A stretch of DNA of 64,000 nt from assembly GCF_902506655.1 (NCBI RefSeq), contig NZ_LR734808.1, positions 2,356,001 through 2,420,000 of the forward strand, written 5' to 3'. A program made the translations under genes and the position numbers. The stretch comes from Marinoscillum sp. 108 (lineage in GTDB: Bacteria > Bacteroidota > Bacteroidia > Cytophagales > Cyclobacteriaceae). The notes beneath the pieces were generated by a model, which ran no database searches, was not told the DNA's origin, and saw only the letters and a list, made by a program, of their open reading frames with translations. Shown piece after piece: positions 25,982 through 38,997 of the stretch; the first letter of the stretch is position 1, and each line of letters starts with the position of its first letter.

Positions 25982-26536
25982 TTAGAATGCGTAACCGATC
26001 GCAAAGTGCAATTCCGGACTAAAGCCCTGGAACAGATTTTCATTATCAAAATCATCTTCGCTGCCTTCTTTTACTTTCAGATTAAAATCTGAGTACTTGC
26101 CGCCGAACGCCAGATCCATCACGAAGCTCTTGCGCTTACCCATCAGCCACTGAAAACCAGCCTTGGCTCCAAATCTGTATGCATTCAAGCTGCCTTTGAA
26201 GTCTTCCTCATCATTCTTCAATGTGAAATTGTTATACTTCATAAAGGGAGCCAGATAAAATCCATCAAGCGCTTCCTTGGTCACATAAAACCGATACTCT
26301 GGCAACAAACCAAGTCCTGAAAACGAGGTGCCATCAGAGGAATAGCTGAAGTAAGAAACGCCAAGCTGAGCAGAGCTGGCATCACCAAGCTTGCGCTCGT
26401 AGTTGATCTTGCCAAGCCCGATAATCAGACCCATTGGGTTGGCTTTTAGCGTATTCTTCTTTTCAGCATCCTGTGCGGATACACTGGTCATTCCAAATAC
26501 TGCAATGAGAAAAAATGAGGTTAGAACCTTTTTCAT
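25982..26536 (-). CDS. Small outer-membrane beta-barrel protein (DUF3575-like)
   Basis: 184 residues. A signal peptide (VLTSFFLIAVFGMTSVSAQ) is followed by alternating amphipathic strands. Features are LKANPMGLIIGLGKINYER, LLPEYRFYV, YLAPFMKYNNFTL, FGAKAGFQWLMGKRKSF and a C-terminal aromatic ending (LHFAIGYAF), typical of eight-strand barrels. The KANP...YER start resembles DUF3575. Function is unknown. Confidence 0.75.
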   Translation of the reverse strand: MKKVLTSFFLIAVFGMTSVSAQDAEKKNTLKANPMGLIIGLGKINYERKLGDASSAQLGVSYFSYSSDGTSFSGLGLLPEYRFYVTKEALDGFYLAPFMKYNNFTLKNDEEDFKGSLNAYRFGAKAGFQWLMGKRKSFVMDLAFGGKYSDFNLKVKEGSEDDFDNENLFQGFSPELHFAIGYAF

Positions 26537-26733
26537 AAGTATATAAGTTTGTTTGGCCGGGGAAAAACAAATGCCATGCCAGAACGACTTATGCCCTTGA
26601 ATCTAACCACTAAACATCGTAGATAAAAGAAGGTGGAAATACTCAATTTGAACCAATACTGAGCTTGATTCAAAAATCAATCTTCTTTGATATCGTAATT
26701 ATTATTATTTCTGTAAAAAAATCGAAGAGGTAG

Positions 26734-26766
26734 GTTGTCAATTTGCTGGCTTATATATTAGCTTTG
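26734..26766 (+). promoter_or_regulatory. Probable promoter of the ilv-thr operon
   Basis: GTTG at 26734-26737, a 21-bp spacer, and TAGCTTTG (full match to TAnnTTTG) at 26759-26766. Transcription would begin only a few bases before the leader-peptide ATG at 26777, so the leader would be nearly leaderless. An upstream promoter is not excluded. Confidence 0.5.
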
Positions 26767-26776
26767 ATTTCGAATA

Positions 26777-26863
26777 ATGAAAAGAATCAACCTAAATATT
26801 GTCATTGTACCAATTATTATTCTGGTCACCACTGTGATTAGGAATGGGAATGGCTGTGTTTAG
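26777..26863 (+). CDS. Branched-chain amino acid leader peptide (attenuator control peptide)
   Basis: A 28-codon ORF from ATG 26777 to TAG 26861-26863. Fourteen of 28 residues are Ile (7), Val (5) or Leu (2). The core reads IVIVPIIILVTTVI, with three consecutive Ile codons at 26813-26821 and two Thr codons at 26828-26833. It sits between a promoter and a strong terminator ahead of ilvE, exactly as ilv/thr leader peptides do in enterobacteria. Ribosome stalling at Ile, Leu, Val or Thr codons would report shortage of the operon's own products. It is too short for ordinary gene calling. Confidence 0.85.
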   Translation: MKRINLNIVIVPIIILVTTVIRNGNGCV

Positions 26864-26884
26864 CAGAAAATATAAAATAAACAC

Positions 26885-26921
26885 AAAGCGCCATTCCTAA
26901 CACGGAATGGCGCTTTTTTTT
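26885..26921 (+). terminator. Attenuator terminator of the ilv-thr operon, with competing antiterminator arm
   Basis: Stem 26885-26897 (AAAGCGCCATTCC) pairs with 26904-26916 (GGAATGGCGCTTT), followed by T8, and ends 13 bp before the ilvE ATG. The octamer GGAATGGC inside the end of the leader ORF (26847-26854) is identical to the 3' arm (26904-26911). It can therefore pair with GCCATTCC at 26890-26897 instead, giving a mutually exclusive antiterminator. A ribosome that finishes the leader peptide covers that arm. Confidence 0.85.
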
Positions 26922-26934
26922 AATCAAATTGACC

Positions 26935-27825
26935 ATGTACTACGACGATCGTACAGAAGTATTTTTGGATGGGGAATGGATCAAGGCCAAGGACGCAAAA
27001 GCCAGCCTTTTTGATCAGACCCTCCACTATGGCACAGGCGTTTTTGATGGGTTGAGGTCCTATAACAATGGTAATGGGTTCAACATCTTCAAACCTGCCG
27101 AGCACTTCAAAAGGCTGCATAAAGCCGCCGAAAAGGTTTTCTTAAAAATACCCTACCCCATTGAAGACCTCATCAAAATAGCCTACGACCTGATAGACCG
27201 AAACAACCTCACCAACGCCTACATCAGACCCCTGGTTTTTGCCGGACCCAACATGATCCTGGCCCCATCAAAGGAATCACACTTTTTCATGACTGCATGG
27301 AAATGGGCCAAGTACCCCGGATACGAGCCACTCAATACCATGATCTCGTCCTATCTGAAGCCCAGCCCCAAATCCACCGTGGTAGATGCCAAAATCGTAG
27401 GAAACTACTCGGCCAATACCCTGGCATCTGCAGAGGCTAAGCGACTGGGCTACGATGAAGCCATCCTCCTGGACCACAATGGTCACCTCGCGGAAGGCCC
27501 TGGCAGCAACATCTTTTACGAAAAAAATGGAGAACTCTTCACTCCCAAGCTGGGCAACATCTTCCCCGGGATCACCAGAAGCACTGTGCTGGAAATTTGT
27601 GAAGAGCTCAAGGTGAAAGTCACAGAAAAAGACATCACTCCCGAAGAGTTTTACAAAGCTGATCACGCCTTCTTCTGTGGCACCGCCACCGAGATCACGC
27701 ACATCAGCTCTGTGAATGGAGAAAAATTCAAAAAAGAGTGGGAAGGGTCCATCGGACACAACCTCCACTTGATCTACCAACAAAAAGTAATGTTTGACGA
27801 GTACCAGGGACTCACGATTGTATAA
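26935..27825 (+). CDS. ilvE: Branched-chain amino acid aminotransferase
   Basis: 296 residues from ATG 26935; an in-frame TTG two codons earlier is rejected. This PLP fold-type IV enzyme transaminates the 2-oxo acids of Ile, Val and Leu with glutamate. Lys153 in [12 protein letters not shown] is the Schiff-base residue; other landmarks are [18 protein letters not shown] and [13 protein letters not shown]. It is the first structural gene after the attenuator and is followed by ilvD after a single base. Confidence 0.95.
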
Positions 27826-27826
27826 A

Positions 27827-29503
27827 ATGGCGCAAGAACTCAACACTTTTAGCAAAGTAATCACACAAGACCCTACACAACCTGCCTCTCAGGCGCAGCT
27901 CTATGCTACAGGCCTCACCGAGGAAGATATGGACAGAGCTCAGGTGGGCATCGTATCCACAGGTTTTGAGGGCAATCCATGCAACATGCACCTCAACATC
28001 CTCGCCCATCAGGTGAAAAAGGGGGTAAGAGAAGCTGACCTGGTAGGTCTTATTTTTCACACCATTGGGGTGAGTGATGGTATTTCTAATGGTACCGTAG
28101 GGATGAAATACTCCCTCATTTCCAGAGACATCATCGCCGACTCTATTGAAACGGTGGTCAACGCCCAGTTTTATGATGCGGTGGTGCCGGTAGTAGGATG
28201 TGATAAAAATATGCCTGGGGCCATCATGGCACTTGGAAGGCTCAACAGACCCGGACTTATGGTCTACGGGGGTTCTGTGAAACCTGGAAAATGGAAAGGT
28301 GAAGACCTGAACATTGTATCGGCTTTTGAAGCCTATGGTGCACGCATGCAGGGCAACATGTCTGATGAAGATTACAAAGGCATCATCAAAAACTCCATCC
28401 CGGGCCCCGGAGCCTGCGGCGGCATGTACACGGCCAACACCATGGCATCAGCCATTGAGGCTATGGGGATGAGCTTACCTTTTAGCTCCTCTAACCCTGC
28501 CGTGAGCGATGAAAAACAGACGGAAACACAAAAGGTAGGAGCGGCGATCAGAAACCTGCTGGAGAAAAATATCCTCCCAAGGGACATCATGACAAAAGAG
28601 GCATTTGAAAATGCCATCACCACTGTTATGATACTTGGTGGCTCTACCAATGCGGTACTTCACCTCATTGCCATGGCCAGATCAGTAGATGTAAACATAG
28701 GATTGGACGACTTTCAGCGAATTAGCGATAAGACCCCTTTCCTGGCCGACCTGAAACCAAGCGGCAGGTTCCTCATGGAAGACCTTCATAAGATTGGCGG
28801 GGTACCCGGCGTATTAAAGCTTTTGCTAAAAGAAGGCTACCTGCATGGCGACTGTATGACGGTCACAGGCAAGACACTGGCCGAAAACCTGGCCGAAGTT
28901 CCTGATCTGCATGATGACAAAGGACTGATGTACAGCTTTGATAAACCTATCAAAGCCAAAGGACACCTCCAGATACTCTATGGCAACCTGGCACCTGAAG
29001 GGGCCGTGGCGAAGATCACGGGCAAGGAAGGTGAAGTTTTCGAAGGACCCGCCAGGATTTATGAAGATGAATTTGATGCCATCCGAGGTATACAGGAGGA
29101 AGTACAAAAAGGAGAAGTGATTGTGATCAGATACTCCGGACCAAAAGGTGCTCCCGGAATGCCGGAAATGCTCAAGCCTACTGGTGCTGTGATGGGTAAA
29201 GGCCTGGGTAAAGATGTAGCGCTCATCACCGATGGCAGGTTCTCAGGCGGATCGCACGGTTTTGTGGTGGGTCACATCACTCCTGAAGCCCAGGAAGGTG
29301 GCCCGCTCGGACTGATCCAAAACGGAGACATCATTCGCATAGATGCCATCACCAACAAACTGGAAGTGAAACTTTCGGACGAAGAGCTGGAAGCACGCAG
29401 AAAAGCCTGGAACAAGCCACCTTATAAGGCTACGAAGGGCATATTAAGGAAATATATCAATTCAGTAAAATCAGCCTCGGAGGGTTGCGTAACTGATGAA
29501 TAA
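27827..29503 (+). CDS. ilvD: Dihydroxy-acid dehydratase
   Basis: 558 residues from ATG 27827, one base past the ilvE stop. It dehydrates 2,3-dihydroxy-isovalerate and -methylvalerate, the third common Ile/Val step. The Fe-S ligands C52 (GNPCNMH), C125 (VGCDKNMPG) and C197 ([14 protein letters not shown]) are all present. The C-terminal domain has [16 protein letters not shown]. It overlaps the start of ilvB by 8 bp, indicating coupling. Confidence 0.96.
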
Positions 29504-31247
29504 ACATAAGACTATGAATTCACCATCTTTAGCGGTAGAGAAGGAGCCCAAACAATCCACGATCAAGGTATCGGGAGCAGAGGCGGTTTTATTATGCCTG
29601 ATCGAAGAAGGAGTTGATGTCATATTTGGCTATCCCGGAGGGGCCATCATGCCTATTTATGATGCGCTGTATGGTTATGCCGACAAGCTCAACCACATTC
29701 TGACCAGACACGAGCAAGGCGCGGCACATGCTGCACAAGGATATGCCAGAGTCAATGGTCGTACTGGCGTCTGCTTTGCCACCTCAGGCCCGGGAGCCAC
29801 CAACCTCATCACCGGCATAGCCGATGCTCAGATTGACTCTACGCCTTTGGTCGCCATCACCGGCCAGGTACCTTCGCACCTTTTGGGCACAGATGCCTTT
29901 CAGGAAACGGACGTGGTAGGTATCTCCATGCCCGTCACTAAGTGGAACTATCAGGTCACACGCGCTGAAGAAATCCCGGAAGCCATTGCCAGGGCATTCT
30001 ATATTGCCGGTACAGGTAGACCAGGCCCCGTATTGGTGGATATTACCAAAGACGCACAGTTTGGTGAGTTCGAGTTTAGCTATAAGAAATGCACTAAAAT
30101 CAGAAGCTATCACCCTTACCCCATTTTGGAAGAAGACAAGATAGCGGCGGCTGCCAAAATCATCAATGAAGCCAAAAAACCATTTTTGCTGGTAGGGCAC
30201 GGCGTGTTGATTTCGGAAGCTCAAAAAGAGCTACTTGCTTTTGCAGAAAAAGCCAACATCCCGATGGCCTCTACCCTGATGGGCCTCTCTGCAGTACCAG
30301 TGAACCATCCACTCTATGTAGGCTATCTGGGAATGCATGGAAACTATGGCCCCAACATCAAAACCAATGAGTGTGATGTGATGATCGCCATTGGGATGCG
30401 ATTTGACGACCGGGTAACCGGAGATCTCAAAAAATATGCACGTCAGGCCAAAGTCATTCACATAGAAATAGACCCGGCTGAGATTGATAAAAATGTAAAA
30501 ACAACTGTGGCCATCAATGCAGACGCCAAGCAGGCACTGCAATCATTGATCAAGCAGACGGAGTCCAATAATCACCAGGCATGGATCGCAGAATTCAGGG
30601 AGTGTGACAAACTGGAAGAAGAGAAGGTGACCAAAAAGGAGAAATTCCCTACGGAAGGCCCCATTTTGATGGCTGAAGTGATCCGAATGATCTCTGACAA
30701 GACCGAAGGTAAAGCAGTGATCGTGACGGACGTAGGGCAGCACCAGATGGTAGCCAGCCGCTACTACGAGTTTGCAGACACCGACTCCAATATCACCTCA
30801 GGTGGTCTGGGTACCATGGGGTTTGCCCTGCCGGCCTCCATGGGCGCACAGGTAGGTCGTCCGGACCGTACCGTCATTGCAGTGATCGGGGACGGTGGCT
30901 TTCAGATGACCATACAGGAGCTGGGTACAATCGCTCAGAATAACCTGGGTGTTAAAATTCTGATCCTCAACAATAACTTCCTGGGGATGGTACGTCAGTG
31001 GCAGCAGCTTTTCCATGACAGAAGATATTCTTTCACCGAATTGACCAACCCCGACTTTCAGAAAATCACTGAAGGCTACGGCATCAAAACCAACAAGGTC
31101 TCCGAGAGAGCCGCATTGAATGCAGCGATCGACGAATGGTTGGCTGATAAAGGTCCTACCCTGCTGGAAGTAGTGGTAGAGAAAGAAGAAAACGTATTTC
31201 CAATGGTACCATCAGGAGCCTCCGTATCTGACATCAGATTAGAGTAA
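29496..31247 (+). CDS. ilvB: Acetolactate synthase large (catalytic) subunit
   Basis: 583 residues from ATG 29496; ATG 29514 is an alternative start. This TPP- and FAD-dependent enzyme makes acetolactate and acetohydroxybutyrate. Evidence: [16 protein letters not shown], the TPP-activating E73 in [25 protein letters not shown], and the TPP-binding [15 protein letters not shown] then [13 protein letters not shown]. It lies within the operon, with the regulatory subunit next. Confidence 0.96.
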
Positions 31248-31266
31248 CCCATTTAATAAACAAACC

Positions 31267-31860
31267 ATGTCAAACTCTATATATAGCGAAGACAGTAGTG
31301 AGAAAGTGGAAAAAGACTTCACACTTTCGGTGCTTACCGAAGACAAAGCGGGGCTTCTGAACCACATCACGATCATTTTCACCAGGCGGAAAATGAACAT
31401 TATCAGCTTGAATGTATCCACTACGGAGGTGGCGGGAGTTTCCCGATTCACCATCGTGCTGCATTCCACCCGCGAAACCATCGAAAAAGTGGTGAAGCAG
31501 ATCAGAAAGCTCATCGATGTACTAGGAGCCTTTGTTTATGAAGACCATGAGATCTACTATCAGGAAATAGCCCTCTACAAAGTGCCTACCAAGGTGTTTT
31601 TGAACGGCAGCAAGATTGAAGATCTGGTGAGAAACAGCGGCGCACGCATACTGGTGATCGAAGAGGATCACATCATCATAGAAAAAACCGGTCACAAGAA
31701 AGACACTCATGATCTTTACAAAAAACTCGAGCCCCATGGTTTGCTGGAGTTTGTGAGGTCCGGAAGGGTGGCCATTTCCAAATCAAAAAGAAAGACCGAG
31801 GCCTACATCAAGCAATTGGAGGATGCCCCGTCACATTATTTAAGCATAAAAGATTTTTAA
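31267..31860 (+). CDS. ilvN: Acetolactate synthase small (regulatory) subunit
   Basis: 197 residues. The N-terminal ACT domain (about 18-95; FTLSVLTEDKAGLLNHITII) binds valine for feedback inhibition, and the C-terminal ALS_ss_C domain continues to about 175. It starts 19 bp after ilvB. The symbol ilvH would be equally valid. Confidence 0.93.
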   Translation: MSNSIYSEDSSEKVEKDFTLSVLTEDKAGLLNHITIIFTRRKMNIISLNVSTTEVAGVSRFTIVLHSTRETIEKVVKQIRKLIDVLGAFVYEDHEIYYQEIALYKVPTKVFLNGSKIEDLVRNSGARILVIEEDHIIIEKTGHKKDTHDLYKKLEPHGLLEFVRSGRVAISKSKRKTEAYIKQLEDAPSHYLSIKDF

Positions 31861-31888
31861 ACTTATTTTATTACAAACAAACAAAACA

Positions 31889-32935
31889 ATGGCGAAAATC
31901 AATTTTGGAGGTGTAGAAGAGGAAGTAGTAACAAGAGAAGAATTTCCTTTATCAAAAGCTCAGGAAGTACTAAAAGGTGAAACAGTAGCGGTATTAGGCT
32001 ACGGTGTGCAAGGCCCTGGTCAGGCACTCAACCTCAAAGACAATGGCATCAACGTGATCGTTGGTCAAAGAAAAGATTCTAAAACCTGGGACAAGGCAGT
32101 AGCCGACGGATGGGTACCAGGTGAAACGCTTTTCGAACTGGAAGAAGCTTGCGAAAGAGGCACAATCCTACAGTTCTTGCTTTCAGATGCTGGTCAGATA
32201 GCCCTTTGGCCTACCGTAAAGAAATACCTTACTCCAGGAAAAGCACTTTACTTTTCTCACGGGTTTGGTGTGACTTACAAAGAAAAAACAGGCATCATTC
32301 CTCCTGCTGACGTAGATGTGATCCTGGTAGCTCCTAAAGGCTCAGGAACTTCTCTCAGAAGACTTTTTGTAGAAGGAAAAGGACTTAATTCCAGCTTTGC
32401 CATCCACCAGGATGCGACCGGAAAAGCCAAAGACAGAGTAGTTGCTCTGGGTATCGCTGTGGGATCAGGTTACCTGTTCGAAACAGATTTTTACAAAGAA
32501 GTTTCTTCTGACCTTACAGGTGAAAGAGGTACTTTGATGGGTGCTATTCAGGGAATCTTCCGTGCACAGTACGAAGTATTGAGAGCCAATGGTCACTCAC
32601 CTTCCGAAGCTTTCAACGAAACTGTGGAAGAAGCTACTCAGTCACTTTATCCACTGATCGCAGAGAATGGAATGGATTGGATGTATGCCAACTGCTCTAC
32701 TACTGCACAAAGAGGTGCTTTGGATTGGATGGGACCTTTCTATGAAGCGACCAAGCCAGTATTCGAAAAACTCTATAAGTCTGTGACAGATGGTATAGAA
32801 GCTCAGAAATCGATCGACAGCAACTCTCAGCCAGACTACCGGGTAAAACTGGAAGCCGAACTGAAAGAATTGGAAGAATCTGAAATGTGGCAAGCCGGCA
32901 AAGCTGTAAGAAAGCTGCGTCCAGAAAACAGTTAA
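31889..32935 (+). CDS. ilvC: Ketol-acid reductoisomerase (NADP)
   Basis: 348 residues. It converts acetolactate or acetohydroxybutyrate to the dihydroxy acids. The Rossmann motif is LGYGVQGPGQALNLKDNG (G37-x-G-x-x-G), where most bacteria have GSQGHAHA; I recall this variant from Bacteroidota. Other motifs are APKGSGTSLRRLF, the metal-binding DLTGERGTLMGAIQG and EATQSLYPLI. Following ilvN by 28 bp, it completes the common pathway. Confidence 0.95.
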   Translation: MAKINFGGVEEEVVTREEFPLSKAQEVLKGETVAVLGYGVQGPGQALNLKDNGINVIVGQRKDSKTWDKAVADGWVPGETLFELEEACERGTILQFLLSDAGQIALWPTVKKYLTPGKALYFSHGFGVTYKEKTGIIPPADVDVILVAPKGSGTSLRRLFVEGKGLNSSFAIHQDATGKAKDRVVALGIAVGSGYLFETDFYKEVSSDLTGERGTLMGAIQGIFRAQYEVLRANGHSPSEAFNETVEEATQSLYPLIAENGMDWMYANCSTTAQRGALDWMGPFYEATKPVFEKLYKSVTDGIEAQKSIDSNSQPDYRVKLEAELKELEESEMWQAGKAVRKLRPENS

Positions 32936-32943
32936 TCAATAGA

Positions 32944-34215
32944 ATGACTACAAATACTACCCATACGGCTTTTTATCCGGAGGTAGAAGAGGTAAAAAAA
33001 GCACACAATATACTGAGCAAGGTGATCTATCAGACCGCCTTGCAGTATAGCTTCAATCTGAGTGAGCGCTATGACGCCCACATCTATCTCAAAAGAGAAG
33101 ACACCCAGATTGTGCGCTCATACAAAATCAGAGGTGCTTATAATAAAATCACTTCGCTCGCTCCTGATCAGCTCATCAATGGAGTAGTATGTGCCAGTGC
33201 TGGCAACCATGCACAGGGCGTAGCATTCTCCTGTTATAAACTTGGGGTGAAGGGCGTGATTTTCATGCCCGCTCCCACCCCCAAACAAAAAGTGCAGCAG
33301 GTCAAAATGTTTGGCAAAGACAAAGTGGAAGTGATCCTGGCAGGAGACACCTTCGATGATGCCTACCAGACAGCCATGGAATACTGCACAGTGAATAAAA
33401 GCACGTTTGTGCACCCCTTCGATGACCCTAAAGTCATAGAAGGTCAGGCCACCATCGGCCTGGAGTTGTTCAAAGATGCCAACTTCAGCATCGATTATCT
33501 TTTTTTACCAGTAGGTGGCGGCGGATTGTCTGCCGGAGTATCCTCCATTATCAAAGCCCTGAGCCCACATACCCAAATGATCGGTGTGGAGCCTGCCGGA
33601 GCCCCTGCCATGCATGAAGCATTTCAGCAAGGCCATGTGGTGACATTGGAAGAAATAGACAAGTTTGTAGACGGCGCGGCCGTAAAGCGTGTAGGCGAAC
33701 TCACCTACCCGCTCTGCAAAGCCAATCTGGATGAAATAGCCCTGGTAGACGAGGGGAAGCTCTGCTCCTCCCTCATCAGCATGTACAACGAAAGCGGCAT
33801 AGTACTGGAGCCCGCAGGCGCACTTTCGGTGGCCGTACTGGATCAGTACAAAGATCAGATCAAAGGCAAAAACATCATCTGCCTCCTGTCTGGCAGCAAC
33901 AACGACATCACCCGCACCGAAGAAATCCGGGAGCGGTCTTTGCTCCATGAAGATCTGATGCACTACTTTATCATCCGTTTTCCCCAACGCGCCGGAGCAC
34001 TGAAGGAATTTGTGGCCGAAGTACTCGGGCCCGACGATGATATCGTGCACTTTGAATACACCAAAAAGACCTCACGAGAAAAAGGCCCCGCACTCGTAGG
34101 TATCGAACTCAAAGCCAAAGAAGACTTTGAGCCCCTATTGACCCGAATGAAACAAAGGAACTTTTTCGGCGAGTATCTCAATGAAAAACCAGATTTATTT
34201 AGTTATATGATCTGA
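32944..34215 (+). CDS. ilvA: Threonine deaminase (threonine ammonia-lyase, biosynthetic)
   Basis: 423 residues from ATG 32944, eight bases after the ilvC stop; the longer frame into ilvC is rejected. It makes 2-oxobutyrate from threonine, the committed step to isoleucine. PLP Lys61 lies in VRSYKIRGAYNKI, with SAGNHAQGVAFSC and PVGGGGLSAG. The C-terminus has a single ACT-like regulatory domain (about 335-423; FIIRFPQRAGALKEFV), so it is the short form and probably Ile-sensitive. Its placement ties the Thr genes to the Ile genes. Confidence 0.94.
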   Translation: MTTNTTHTAFYPEVEEVKKAHNILSKVIYQTALQYSFNLSERYDAHIYLKREDTQIVRSYKIRGAYNKITSLAPDQLINGVVCASAGNHAQGVAFSCYKLGVKGVIFMPAPTPKQKVQQVKMFGKDKVEVILAGDTFDDAYQTAMEYCTVNKSTFVHPFDDPKVIEGQATIGLELFKDANFSIDYLFLPVGGGGLSAGVSSIIKALSPHTQMIGVEPAGAPAMHEAFQQGHVVTLEEIDKFVDGAAVKRVGELTYPLCKANLDEIALVDEGKLCSSLISMYNESGIVLEPAGALSVAVLDQYKDQIKGKNIICLLSGSNNDITRTEEIRERSLLHEDLMHYFIIRFPQRAGALKEFVAEVLGPDDDIVHFEYTKKTSREKGPALVGIELKAKEDFEPLLTRMKQRNFFGEYLNEKPDLFSYMI

Positions 34216-34311
34216 AATTATTAGACTTTTGGACATTGGATCAGCCAAGTGAACAAAGATTTTTTAAAACCTGTAAACGCGGAGGCCATAAGCCGAAGCT
34301 AAGCGTCAAAT

Positions 34312-36741
34312 ATGAAAGTACTAAAATTTGGAGGTACCTCGGTAGGTAGTGAGGAAGCAATCAGACAAGTAGCCAGAATTGTTCATTCATCTATAGATCA
34401 GTTGGTGTTGGTCACATCGGCTGTGGGTGGAGTCACCGATCAGCTGGTACACATCGGAGAGCTGGCCGCTTCCGGCCGCAAAGATTACGCTTCATTCATA
34501 GAAGGAGTGAAAGTGCAACATGAGCAGCTCTATTATAACCTCATAGAAAACAAACCCGATGAGCAATTCTACAAAATCATCGAAGAGTTTGAAGACATCT
34601 GCAAGGGCGTGTGGCTCCTTCGCGAACTCACCCCCAGAAGTGCAGACTACATCTACAGCACTGGTGAGCGACTTTCTACTTTGATCATTTCTGAGTTTTT
34701 CAGAAACGAGGGAATCGACGTGACCCTCTATGACAGCCGTGACTACATCATCACCGATGATCATTTTGGTCATGCCCACGTAGATTTCAAAGAAACCACT
34801 AAAAGACTCAAAGAAGTCAGCAAGACCTTCAGCAAAGTAAACCTGTTTCCGGGATTCATTGCCTCTACAGCTGACAACCAAACCACCACCCTTGGACGGG
34901 GAGGCTCAGACTACTCTGCCGCCATTCTGGCCGGAGTGCTCGATGCGGATCATTTTGAAGTGTGGACCGATGTGGACGGACTCATGACCGCCGACCCGCG
35001 CATGGTCAAGCGTGCACATTTCATTGAGCACGTTTCCTATGAGGAAGCGCTCGAGCTTTCACACTTTGGCGCTAAAGTGATCTATCCGCCCAGCATCCAG
35101 CCAGCGCTGGAAAAAGGCATCTCCATCACCATCAAAAATACTTTCAACCCGGAGCATCCGGGTACGCTGATCACCAAAGAATGGGATCAGGACAAAGAAT
35201 TGATCAGAGGGATTTCCAGCATCAAAGACATCTCGCTGGTCACCCTCAGTGGCAACAGCATGGTGGGCGTCCCGAAGTTCTCCTACCGCTTCTTCAGGGC
35301 CCTGTCGGAAGCACACATCAATGTGATCCTGATCACTCAGTCCAGTTCTGAGCATTCGATCACCGTGGGGATCGACACGAAAGATTCAAAGGCCGCCGTG
35401 AAAGCCCTCAATGCAGAGTTTGAAGAGCAAATTGAAAATCACAAGATCGACCCGATCCAGGCTGAAAACAACCTTTCGATCATCGCGCTGGTGGGCTCCA
35501 ATATGAAAAATCAGGTGGGGGTTAGTGGCCAGATGTTTAACGTACTGGGTAAAAATGGCGTGAGCATCAAAGCCATCGCTCAGGGATCCTCTGAGCGTAA
35601 TATCTCCGCTGTGATTGCCAAAGATGACCTAAACAAAGCACTGAACGTACTTCATGAGAGCTTCTTCCTTTCTGTCACCAAGAGGATCAACCTCTTCATC
35701 ATCGGTACAGGCAATGTCGGAAAGGCCTTCATCCAGCAGTTGGTTCAGCAATTTACTTACCTCAAGAAACACCATCAGCTGAACATCAAAATCATTGGTC
35801 TGGGCAACTCCCGACTCATGCACTTTGAGAATGATGGAATCCCCCTTTCGAAATGGGAATCCATCCTGCAGGCAGGAGAAAAATACTCCAGCGAGCAGTT
35901 TTTGGAGAAAATGTACAACGCCAACCTACGCAACAGTATTTTCATAGACATTACAGCCTCTGAAGATGTAGCCGGACTCTATCCGCAAATACTGAAAAAG
36001 AGTATTTCGGTGGTTACACCTAACAAAATAGCCGCAACAGGATCCTATGCAGACTACCTCAACCTGAAAGGGATGAGTAGACGCTACGGAAGCAGATTCC
36101 TTTTTGAGACCAACGTATGCGCTGGCTTGCCGGTGCTCTCTACGCTGAGTGATCTGGTAAGAAGTGGCGATCAGATCCACCAGATTGAAGCAGTGCTTTC
36201 CGGTACCCTGGTCTTTTTGTTCAATGAATACAACGGCAAAACCAAGTTTGTAGACGTGATCAAAAAAGCCAAACAACTGGGATACACCGAGCCTGACCCT
36301 CGACTGGATCTTTTCGGATCGGATGTCAAACGAAAAATAGTGATTCTGATCAGAGAAAGTGGCTACAAATGCGACTATGAAGACATTCAATTAAATTCTT
36401 TCCTTCCTGAAAGCTGTCTGGAGAGCAATTCGGTAGAAGACTTCTACACCAAAGTGGAAAAAGAAGAAGCCCACTTCAAAAACCTTTATGAGGCTGCCAA
36501 CAAGGAAGGAAAACGCCTGAAGGTAGTCGCCAAATACAAAAACGGACATGGCTCTGTGGGGCTGGAGGCTGTGGATTCGGCCCATCCTTTTTACAACCTG
36601 GAAGGCAAGGACAACATTGTGCTGTTCTATACCAACCGCTACAAAGAGCAGCCTATGGTGATCAAAGGTGCCGGTGCCGGTGCTGAAGTGACCGCCTCGG
36701 GGATTTTTGCCGATGTACTGAGGCTTGCCCAGACCGACTAG
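34312..36741 (+). CDS. thrA: Bifunctional aspartokinase I / homoserine dehydrogenase I
   Basis: 809 residues. Aspartokinase (1-290; LKFGGTSVGSEEAI, TTTLGRGGSDYSAA) is followed by two ACT domains (about 310-455) and homoserine dehydrogenase (about 460-809; NLFIIGTGNVGKAF, NKIAATG, KGAGAGAEVTASGIFADVLR). It catalyses the first and third steps from aspartate to threonine, normally Thr-inhibited. It begins 96 bp after ilvA; that gap shows no hairpin, so read-through from the ilv genes is likely. Confidence 0.96.
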   Translation: MKVLKFGGTSVGSEEAIRQVARIVHSSIDQLVLVTSAVGGVTDQLVHIGELAASGRKDYASFIEGVKVQHEQLYYNLIENKPDEQFYKIIEEFEDICKGVWLLRELTPRSADYIYSTGERLSTLIISEFFRNEGIDVTLYDSRDYIITDDHFGHAHVDFKETTKRLKEVSKTFSKVNLFPGFIASTADNQTTTLGRGGSDYSAAILAGVLDADHFEVWTDVDGLMTADPRMVKRAHFIEHVSYEEALELSHFGAKVIYPPSIQPALEKGISITIKNTFNPEHPGTLITKEWDQDKELIRGISSIKDISLVTLSGNSMVGVPKFSYRFFRALSEAHINVILITQSSSEHSITVGIDTKDSKAAVKALNAEFEEQIENHKIDPIQAENNLSIIALVGSNMKNQVGVSGQMFNVLGKNGVSIKAIAQGSSERNISAVIAKDDLNKALNVLHESFFLSVTKRINLFIIGTGNVGKAFIQQLVQQFTYLKKHHQLNIKIIGLGNSRLMHFENDGIPLSKWESILQAGEKYSSEQFLEKMYNANLRNSIFIDITASEDVAGLYPQILKKSISVVTPNKIAATGSYADYLNLKGMSRRYGSRFLFETNVCAGLPVLSTLSDLVRSGDQIHQIEAVLSGTLVFLFNEYNGKTKFVDVIKKAKQLGYTEPDPRLDLFGSDVKRKIVILIRESGYKCDYEDIQLNSFLPESCLESNSVEDFYTKVEKEEAHFKNLYEAANKEGKRLKVVAKYKNGHGSVGLEAVDSAHPFYNLEGKDNIVLFYTNRYKEQPMVIKGAGAGAEVTASGIFADVLRLAQTD

Positions 36742-36776
36742 TAAACAATTTTTCTCGAACTCTTGACTTTAGAAAC

Positions 36777-37697
36777 TTGGAAAGCATTCAAGTATTTGCA
36801 CCGGCCTCAGTGGCCAACGTAGGACCGGGTTATGACACTTTTGGCTTTGCCATAGAGCAGCTGGGAGATGTGATTACACTTACCAAACGAAATGATCATA
36901 AGCTGAAGGTACTGAAGGCAGAAGGTGCCGACCTTCCGACCGATCCTAAAAACAATGTGGCCACCGTGGCCATCCAGTCACTGCTGGACTATCTGGAAAG
37001 TGATCAGGGCATGGACGTGCACATTAAGAAAATATTCAAACCGGGAAGCGGCCTGGGAAGCAGCGCCTCCAGCGCCTCAGGTGCGGTGTTTGCGGCCAAC
37101 CACCTCCTGGGCAACCCGCTGAAACTCGAGAAACTCCTTGATTTTGCGTTGGAGGGTGAAGCACTGGCTTCCAAAAGTTATCACGCCGATAACGTAGCCC
37201 CCTCCCTGCTCGGGGGCTTTCAGGTGGTGCGGAGCTACGAGCCTCTGGAGCTGTTCCGCATTCCCACTCCGGCCGCATTGCGGGTGCTCATCATCTTTCC
37301 GGATGTGGAAATCAAAACCTCAGAAGCCAAAGGATTAATTCCCAAAGAACTCTCCGTGAAGGATGCCCGTGAGCAGTGGGGCAACGTGGGCGCACTGATC
37401 CACGCCATGCATAGTGAGGATTATTCGCTACTTTCCCATGCGGTAAGGGACCGGATCGCTGAGCCTGTCAGAAAACAGCTGATCCCAGAATACGGCAAAG
37501 TCAAGCAAACGACCCTCGACTTTGGAGCTGTGGGTTTCAATATTTCCGGATCAGGGCCCAGCATGTTTGCCTTTTTCAAGAGTTCGGAAGCTGCCAAGGC
37601 CTGTATGGTTAAAATTGAAAAAATGTACCAAAAGGTGAATCTCCCGGTCATGCTGCATTTGACCAAAATCAATCCAAACGGGTGTCAGATCCTTTAA
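36777..37697 (+). CDS. thrB: Homoserine kinase
   Basis: 306 residues, starting at TTG 36777. No ATG or GTG fits, since the family N-terminus (VFAPASVANVGPGYDTFGFA) begins six codons later. The GHMP ATP-binding loop PGSGLGSSASSASG is at about 89-102, and the GHMP C-terminal motif VGFNISGSGPSMFAFF is present. It phosphorylates homoserine for ThrC. It is 35 bp from thrA and 16 bp from thrC. Confidence 0.94.
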   Translation: MESIQVFAPASVANVGPGYDTFGFAIEQLGDVITLTKRNDHKLKVLKAEGADLPTDPKNNVATVAIQSLLDYLESDQGMDVHIKKIFKPGSGLGSSASSASGAVFAANHLLGNPLKLEKLLDFALEGEALASKSYHADNVAPSLLGGFQVVRSYEPLELFRIPTPAALRVLIIFPDVEIKTSEAKGLIPKELSVKDAREQWGNVGALIHAMHSEDYSLLSHAVRDRIAEPVRKQLIPEYGKVKQTTLDFGAVGFNISGSGPSMFAFFKSSEAAKACMVKIEKMYQKVNLPVMLHLTKINPNGCQIL

Positions 37698-37713
37698 AAG
37701 AACCGAATTCAAG

Positions 37714-38997
37714 ATGAAATTTTACTCCACCAATGGCCAGTCCAGTCCGGTATCGTTTAAAGAAGCAGTCATCAAGAGCCTGCCCTCAGACAAAGGGCTG
37801 TACTATCCTGAGGAAATACCAGAACTCGATTTCCTGTTTTTGGAAACCCTCAGCTACTACTCCCTTCCTCAGATAGGGTTTGAAGTATTGAGGCAATTCT
37901 GCAAGGATGATATCCCTGAGACCAAACTGCAGGAAATCCTGGAGGGGGCGCTCAACTTTGAGATCCCCGTGGTAGAAGTAGAAAAAAACATCCATGCCCT
38001 GGAGCTATTTCATGGCCCCACCTACGCCTTCAAAGATGTAGGTGCCCGGTTTCTGGCCAGATGCCTGGGCTATTTCAACGAAACAGAAAATAAGGAAGTC
38101 ACCATACTGGTGGCCACCTCTGGTGATACCGGCGGAGCGGTAGCCTCCGGCTTCTATGAAGTACCTGGTGTCAATGTGGTCATCTTGTACCCTAGCGGGA
38201 AGGTGAGTGACTTACAGGAAAAGCAACTCACTACACTGGGCAAAAACATCAAAGCCATCGAAGTAAAAGGCAACTTTGATGACTGCCAGGCCATGGTGAA
38301 AAAGGCTTTTCACGACACTGACATTAATGCAAAGCTCAACCTGAGCTCAGCCAACTCCATCAACATCGCCCGATGGCTACCTCAGTCGCTCTACTACTTC
38401 GAGGCATACAAGCAGCTCCAAAAAGATAAGCTGGTGGTGTCCGTGCCTTCGGGAAATTATGGCAACATCACGGCCGGTATGCTCGCCAAAAAAATGGGTC
38501 TGCCCATTCATAGATTTATTGCTGCCAGCAATGCCAACGACGTGGTGCCCAGGTACCTCATCGACGAACAATATTCGCCCCGGCCTACAGTACCTACCCT
38601 ATCCAATGCCATGGATGTGAGTGATCCAAGCAATCACCCCAGGATGCTGGAACTGCACGAAAAGAGTTTCAAAGACATCATCAAACACATCTCTGGCTTC
38701 ACCCTCAGCGATGAGCAAACCCTGAAGGTCATGAAAGAATGCGATCAGGAAAACAACTACATCCTGGACCCGCATGGGGCCATTGGGTATGCAGCCCTGA
38801 AAGCTGGTCTACAAAAGAAGGAAACAGGCCTCTTCCTGGAAACCGCCCACTATAGCAAGTTTCTCAGCACGGTAGAGCAGGCACTGGGGAAAGAAATACA
38901 ACTGCCCGATTTCGTATCTGAACTCATGAAAAAAGAGAAAGAGGCAATCCTGATCAACAATGATTACGAGGCTTTTAAGGCATTTTTAATGGAGTAA
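37714..38997 (+). CDS. thrC: Threonine synthase
   Basis: 427 residues. This PLP fold-type II enzyme releases phosphate from O-phosphohomoserine to give threonine. Lys107 lies in GPTYAFKDVGARFLAR, with TSGDTGGAVASGF and SVPSGNYGNITAGMLA. It is the last gene of the nine-gene operon. No clear hairpin terminator follows before the methyltransferase gene, 68 bp on. Confidence 0.95.
   Translation: MKFYSTNGQSSPVSFKEAVIKSLPSDKGLYYPEEIPELDFLFLETLSYYSLPQIGFEVLRQFCKDDIPETKLQEILEGALNFEIPVVEVEKNIHALELFHGPTYAFKDVGARFLARCLGYFNETENKEVTILVATSGDTGGAVASGFYEVPGVNVVILYPSGKVSDLQEKQLTTLGKNIKAIEVKGNFDDCQAMVKKAFHDTDINAKLNLSSANSINIARWLPQSLYYFEAYKQLQKDKLVVSVPSGNYGNITAGMLAKKMGLPIHRFIAASNANDVVPRYLIDEQYSPRPTVPTLSNAMDVSDPSNHPRMLELHEKSFKDIIKHISGFTLSDEQTLKVMKECDQENNYILDPHGAIGYAALKAGLQKKETGLFLETAHYSKFLSTVEQALGKEIQLPDFVSELMKKEKEAILINNDYEAFKAFLME

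Follow-up and report, generated by a model that had tools for sequence, protein, structure and literature searches.

Transcription attenuation, worked out in Proteobacteria, is the textbook case of translation being linked to transcription. The E. coli leader ilvL is multivalent, presenting Ile, Val and Leu codons before the branched-chain operon, and the Bacteroid-trp RNA is a trp leader. As to the printed record, the E. coli ilvGMEDA operon is named in the available portion of PMC1183508, and Bacteroid-trp (RF01692) is listed as a Bacteroidetes cis-regulatory RNA candidate in that of PMC2864571. The accessible passages on B. thetaiotaomicron mention sORFs 'reminiscent of leader peptides' (PMC7366714), and those on F. 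psychrophilum speak of 'strong clues' that amino acid operons are preceded by leader-peptide attenuators, with hisG and pheA among the conserved elements (PMC9723704). These F. psychrophilum passages describe neither tandem units nor a near-leaderless leader, and the main text, to the extent that it was available, never uses the term 'ilv'. The word Bacteroid- is likewise absent from the available main text of a survey of premature terminators (PMC2965389). Tandem attenuators have been described for Salmonella mgtCBR, where, according to the excerpted text, two short ORFs share one transcription-controlling leader (PMC3641672).

Here we analysed a 64,000-nt stretch (the window) of the 5.2-Mb genome of Marinoscillum sp. 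108. We conclude, from sequence comparison and folding, that a ribosome-mediated transcription attenuator very probably controls the ilvEDBNCA-thrABC operon in this window, and the original prediction to this effect is supported by conservation of the unit, compensatory changes and near-empty controls. By Pfam assignment, the leader is followed on the forward strand by ilvE (26935..27825, ATG at 26935; a class IV aminotransferase, PF01063) as the first structural gene, and then by ilvD, ilvB, ilvN, ilvC, ilvA, thrA, thrB and thrC (27836..38997; the order was compared with that of genus relatives), the thrA product being an aspartokinase-homoserine dehydrogenase. We take this run to be an operon for Ile, Val, Leu and Thr synthesis. 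The closest named match to ilvE in our scan, from Fulvivirga imtechensis, shares 61% identity, and an ilvD match lies at the same locus as ilvE in 65 of the 67 loci L001-L067. One member of the same genus, listed as complete (G004), has no close ilvE match (best E 5.4e-29), and its ilvE operon may have been lost or replaced.

The original prediction described a 28-codon ORF before ilvE, half of it Ile, Val and Leu, with Ile-Ile-Ile-Leu-Val-Thr-Thr in a row, followed by a perfect GC-rich terminator with eight Ts, and an arm within the ORF that repeats the terminator 3' arm; each of these elements is present. The leader ORF lies on the forward strand at 26777-26863 and reads MKRINLNIVIVPIIILVTTVIRNGNGCV up to its stop codon. 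It is enriched in codons for the end products of the operon, with I, V or L at 14 of 28 residues (leaders of relatives and codon bias are treated below); the run occupies codons 13-19 (26813-26833), and the putative sensor codons are 8-21. An intrinsic terminator (26885-26921, forward strand) stands between the leader ORF and ilvE, with a 13-bp stem (26885-26897/26904-26916) that includes seven G-C pairs and a loop of 6 nt. Its Ts span 26914-26921, three of them in the stem and five forming the free tail. The nearest ORF upstream of the leader (25982-26536) is on the opposite strand, so this terminator serves no co-directional upstream gene and most likely acts on transcripts initiated within the 240-bp gap.

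The repeated sequence GGAATGGC is found at 26847-26854 and again at 26904-26911, and its partner GCCATTCC at 26890-26897, which makes the terminator and an antiterminator mutually exclusive. The antiterminator is longer than had been noted. Its 5' arm (26845-26862) contains the core and a second helix, and its 3' arm (26878-26899) overlaps the terminator 5' arm, so that 26845-26854/26890-26899 is extended by an 8-bp helix, 26855-26862/26878-26885, reaching into the leader stop codon. The comparison of folding energies that the original prediction called for gives -21.8 kcal/mol for the antiterminator versus -22.3 for the terminator. None of 200 shuffles is as stable as the leader region (z -5.4) or as the terminator (z -8.2). 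In the minimum free energy fold of the whole leader, Ile-Val-Ile codons (26801-26806) pair with the antiterminator arm (26849-26854) while the terminator is kept. This protector fold (26792-26863, forward strand) consists of 26792-26799/26856-26863, 26801-26806/26849-26854 and an inner hairpin at 26820-26843; as modelled, it can hold the antiterminator arm, and its layout is that of a classical protector.

In the mechanism that we propose, transcription would start a few bases before the leader ATG and a ribosome would load at once, without a Shine-Dalgarno sequence. When Ile-, Val- or Leu-tRNA (perhaps also Thr-tRNA) is short, the ribosome would stall within codons 8-20, leaving the arm 26845-26862 free to pair with 26878-26899; the terminator would then come too late, and ilvEDBNCA-thrABC would be transcribed. 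When amino acids are plentiful, the ribosome would reach the stop codon and cover the arm, the terminator would form, and transcription would end. If the leader is not translated, the protector may hold the arm and cause termination by default, a step that is not borne out by the equilibrium model.

We modelled the ribosome with an assumed footprint ending 15 nt after the first base of the P-site codon, on a truncated RNA whose 3' end lies just past the terminator 5' arm. The antiterminator probability is 0.98-1.0 with the P-site at codons 1-19, 0.57 at codon 20, which is the last position permitting it, and at most 0.01 from codon 21. The model thus agrees with the prediction that a stalled ribosome leaves the arm free and a ribosome at the stop codon covers it, with the antiterminator formed up to codon 20 of 28 and absent at the stop. 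Given this switch point, stalls at any of the Ile, Val, Leu or Thr codons as far as 20 or 21 would permit antitermination. Once the full terminator has been transcribed, it wins at every ribosome position in the equilibrium model, and E. coli thrL with its full terminator likewise folds into the terminator; consequently, antitermination must be kinetic in both leaders. On the truncated RNA, the antiterminator reaches 1.0 even without any ribosome, and the protector by itself does not prevent it, so the model gives no default termination enforced by the protector.

Among known systems, E. coli thrL (Thr_leader, RF00506) is alike in having a leader ORF whose 3'-end arm repeats the terminator 3' arm and a terminator before the first gene, and the same model gives it the same ribosome-position switch, at codon 15 of 21. 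It differs in that the sensor codons of the window are Ile/Val/Leu instead of Thr/Ile, and in phylum and promoter type. Thr_leader is the best sub-threshold cis-regulatory Rfam match to 26600-27100, and its 27.6 bits (E 0.0038) against a gathering score of 55 do not place the leader in this family; SraB, an unrelated sRNA family, scores about equally (26.9 bits, E 0.0028). E. coli ilvGMEDA shares the multivalent Ile/Val/Leu leader before a branched-chain operon, but gene order, promoter type, the predicted ultrashort 5'UTR and the presence of thrABC in the same run set the window apart. Bacteroid-trp, unlike the unit in the window, concerns tryptophan, and it has no match either at gathering score in the window or in 26600-27100 with the E limit raised to 5. 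The F. psychrophilum elements come from the same phylum and are, in the passages available, structured 5' regions read as leader-peptide attenuators (PMC9723704).

The upstream regions of ilvE were sampled in three draws. The first gave 30 loci from 98 relatives, including the window's own, and the second 80 named loci, from which L031-L067 entered the analysis. The third gave 30 matches across 295 class genomes, and 29 of these were new loci. The 66 loci counted are L001-L067 minus L064, which has no upstream sequence, and include the window itself (L001) and one locus titled as actinobacterium (L039). L068-L110 were left uncounted, most being titled as other phyla, and so was L088 (Cyclobacteriaceae, with a cut ilvE), although a leader and terminator are present there. 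The class sample (L153-L181) comes to 27 loci once the repeats L167 and L176 are removed. Our detector accepted a unit when a terminator had a complementary arm 12-100 nt upstream and an ORF rich in I/L/V/T came to its end at that arm. For a strict unit, the terminator had to reach -10 kcal/mol or better, the ORF had to have 8-60 codons, at least 40% of them I/L/V/T, and end near the arm, and the duplex had to be reached by at most 5% of 200 shuffles; the loose rule put 36% and 20% in place of 40% and 5%.

Relatives with ilvE largely keep the leader ORF, arm and terminator, as a conserved attenuator was expected to: the unit is present at 53 of the 66 loci by the loose rule (52/65 without the window) and at 44 by the strict rule, and at 21 of the 27 class-sampled loci by the loose rule (20/26 without L170, which repeats L063) and 19 by the strict. 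No unit is found by the loose rule at 13 of the 66 and 6 of the 27 loci; among detector-negative loci, inspection by eye shows a leader in L009 and L017 and none in L016, L060 and L065. Since the detector itself demands an I/L/V/T-rich ORF, these counts gain meaning only via controls. The reverse complement of the same regions yielded 1 strict unit among 35 terminators, compared with 46 of 93 on the real strand. Across 913 kb of operon loci (both strands), 26 strict units were found among 503 terminators; by our own reading, 23 of them are ilvE leaders, including a newly found one (L142), and three are unrelated.

These controls bear directly on a rival reading in which the hairpin acts as a roadblock or constitutive 5' terminator, or responds to a protein or ligand in the manner of a riboswitch, the ORF being incidental. 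The greater stability of the complete terminator at equilibrium speaks for such a hairpin, which we nevertheless consider very unlikely: the terminator is joined by the arm and an I/L/V/T-rich ORF far more often on the real strand than on the reverse, the leader Ile and Val codons are biased relative to ilvE, and no Rfam cis-regulatory family reaches its cut-off in the window. A T-box or riboswitch was rejected separately, as two tRNAs are all that Rfam reports in the window at gathering score.

The strongest evidence for selected pairing in a ribosome-mediated attenuator comes, in our reading of the sequences, from the fit of each arm to its own terminator. Arm sequences differ widely among loci (GGAATGGC, GGGGCGGT, GTCGGATGAGA and others). 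In 66 of 71 units, the leader arm matches the terminator of its own locus more closely than the arms of other loci do on average (Wilcoxon p 8e-13); this also holds for 50 of 53 arm classes, kinship being uncorrected. Closer to the window, the compensatory changes looked for in the antiterminator are seen in alignment A2 (the window, four genus members and G036), where 6 of 18 pairs have changed on both sides and 86.9% of cells are paired. The covariation score of 0.226 is reached by 0 of 500 shuffles and by none of six slides (0.000-0.089). Five of the six pairs with two-sided changes belong to the second helix, and the core arm hardly varies within the genus; covariation of the core arm therefore rests on the wider comparison, on which we also place more weight because six related sequences are few. 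In the protector fold, 6 of 27 pairs show two-sided changes in the genus alignment. The window has GGAATGG twice, overlapping, at 26841 and 26847 (26841-26854), which offers a second antiterminator register; the other rows of A2 appear by eye to have a single GGAATGG each.

The leader peptide is hydrophobic and alike within the genus, which would suit a stable small protein acting in trans, with the terminator as just the end of its transcript. We regard this as highly improbable: the peptide belongs to no Pfam family, beyond the genus its composition is kept but its length (9-40 residues) and residue order vary, and its last codons carry an arm fitting the terminator. Equally improbable is translational control, in which structure would gate the ilvE start or the terminating ribosome would re-initiate there: the T-run does end 13 nt before the ilvE ATG, and leader genes 11-14 bp from a gene are proposed to raise translation in Bacteroidetes (PMC4833913, in the part available), but 71 nt separate the leader stop from the ilvE start here, and the terminator-ilvE distance varies from 6 to >150 nt in relatives, which favours transcription termination.

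Codon choice within the leaders is itself distinctive. Before the arm, ATT accounts for 249 of 335 Ile codons in leaders versus 392 of 1032 in ilvE, and GTC for 97 of 182 Val codons versus 97 of 868. Counted by locus, with kinship between loci uncorrected, the ATT share is higher in the leader than in ilvE in 44 of 47 and the GTC share in 36 of 36. We rejected the view that the bias is a mere by-product of protector pairing: it persists outside the predicted protector duplex (GTC 47/108, ATT 125/173), so pairing alone is insufficient to explain it. ARAGORN, run on 30 fetched loci of 35 tRNA matches, finds one tRNA-Val GAC and one TAC gene in the window's own genome. Attenuator leaders with biased codons are known and have been explained via selective charging of isoacceptors, as set out in the available portion of PMC1183508; the bias described here would be a new case of this explanation.

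On threonine, the original prediction does not hold well. It had read Thr-Thr as a match to thrABC in the same operon, but Thr-Thr occurs in 0 of the 4 other genus members examined, all of which have thrABC downstream. In these genomes (G001, G002, G003 and G005), ilv and thr genes form one run (ilvC is not listed for G001), and the leaders have 1-3 scattered Thr each; leaders without linked thr genes have 0-6. As Thr-Thr is not conserved, we rejected the idea that Thr sensing belongs to the design of these leaders within the genus. Outside the genus, Thr sensing may still occur, as there are Thr-richer leaders in two more distant thr-linked genomes: in G041 (ilvE-ilvA-thrA), one leader contains three Thr and a second, recognised by eye, contains four, and G023 (thrABC linked) has a Thr-rich leader (4/21) that the detector rejected.

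Directly upstream of the leader ORF lies TTG-N21-TAGCTTTG, which was absent from the original prediction; it was spotted by eye and the box was then checked. We read it as a predicted sigma-ABfr promoter (26735-26766, forward strand), with TTG at 26735-26737, 21 nt, and the -7 box TAGCTTTG at 26759-26766, which fits the phylum -7 box TAnnTTTG; a -33 consensus is quoted in the available text of PMC7366714. An E. coli-type sigma-70 promoter was rejected, with 0 found in 26000-27200 and the Bacteroidota box fitting instead. The F. psychrophilum box sits at -12 to -5 in the passages of PMC9723704, which would place the start at about 26771. The box is present as TAGCTTTG in 5/5 genus leaders and as TACTTTTG in G036, giving predicted 5'UTRs of 4-7 nt in the four genus relatives and 5 nt in G036. 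Within the window, 11 of 2404 ATGs, including that of the leader, have such a box 4-12 nt upstream. The published median 5'UTR, as given in the parts of these papers available, is 24 nt in F. psychrophilum (PMC9723704) and 32 nt in B. thetaiotaomicron (PMC7366714), leaderless cases making up 5.5% and those under 10 nt 3.7%; Bacteroidota are described as largely without Shine-Dalgarno sequences (PMC7366714). We rejected a near-leaderless start as a rule of the phylum. An exact TAnnTTTG occurs within 70 nt in 23 of 51 leaders, with predicted 5'UTRs of 0-52 nt (median 15). In 8 of these 23 the 5'UTR is at most 7 nt (five of the window's genus, G036, L029 and L054), which ties the trait to this genus and a small number of others.

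The window has a single unit. Two units before ilvE are found by the loose rule at 11 of the 66 and 5 of the 27 loci, both being strict in 2 of the 11, which include loci from Tenacibaculum (L050, L053, L066), Roseivirga (L038), Myroides (L046) and Chryseobacterium (L054); second units are weak in L012 and L154. There is no exact TAnnTTTG box between the units at any of the 11 loci, and the second ORF begins 14-111 nt past the first hairpin, so that the second unit is probably reached by read-through only. Units in series are mostly both Ile/Val-rich, and no split between different amino acids was seen. Salmonella mgtCBR likewise has two short ORFs in one leader, but it is not an amino acid biosynthetic operon (PMC3641672). 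In Tenacibaculum and look-alikes (L050, L053, L061, L066, L169), the two complete Ile/Val units have closely similar leaders. In Myroides sp. 1354 (L046), the unit recurs past a run of N, as either a further real copy or an assembly duplicate.

Elsewhere in the genome that contains the window, hisG is preceded by the His-rich ORF MTYALHHHPHHCS (L144, C1:454943). The box TACATTTG ends 5 nt before its ATG, which would make this leader-like ORF near-leaderless, and the terminator scan found no terminator between it and hisG. Upstream of a trpE-like gene (L145, C1:295896), the Trp ORF MIRTNTYYWWHILLLGL is followed by a perfect terminator, by appearance a trp attenuator. For the HMGL-family (leuA-like) and PDT-family (pheA-like) genes of this genome, inspection by eye of the 330 nt immediately upstream revealed no leaders. 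Within the operon, a second attenuator before thrA was rejected, as the gap 34216-34311 has, by eye, no hairpin-plus-T unit.

The original prediction knew of no worked example for such a combined operon in Bacteroidota; as a claim of novelty for the phylum, this does not hold well, as the trp motif (PMC2864571), the B. thetaiotaomicron sORFs (PMC7366714) and the F. psychrophilum clues (PMC9723704) are already in print, even in the parts of these papers available. A survey that Lopatovskaya and colleagues published in 2010, and to which the accessible text of PMC4833913 refers, may already list Bacteroidetes attenuators, and we therefore claim no priority. Three features appear new here: the predicted 5'UTR of 6 nt (4-7 nt across the genus), the preference of the leaders for Ile ATT and Val GTC, and the occurrence of two units in series. 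The mechanism appears to be the classical one, well supported in a phylum for which the print searched offers a trp motif and clues, and the series arrangement and near-leaderless start could be parts that make a variant.

Taken across the phylum, we lean towards the view that Bacteroidota have an attenuation of their own at ilv operons, with leaders lacking a Shine-Dalgarno sequence, in some lineages almost at the mRNA 5' end, written largely in ATT and GTC, and in many lineages with two complete attenuators that follow one another downstream of a single promoter. If this is true, RNA polymerase passes two ribosome-controlled terminators sensing the same amino acids, and the series arrangement would steepen the response, like tandem riboswitches. 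Conservation through much of Bacteroidota makes the coupling of translation and transcription in this phylum testable with one leader. The leader codon bias provides an independent test of the selective-charging theory as presented in the available portion of PMC1183508, and the in-series arrays would show, in a natural setting, how the stacking of attenuators determines sensitivity.
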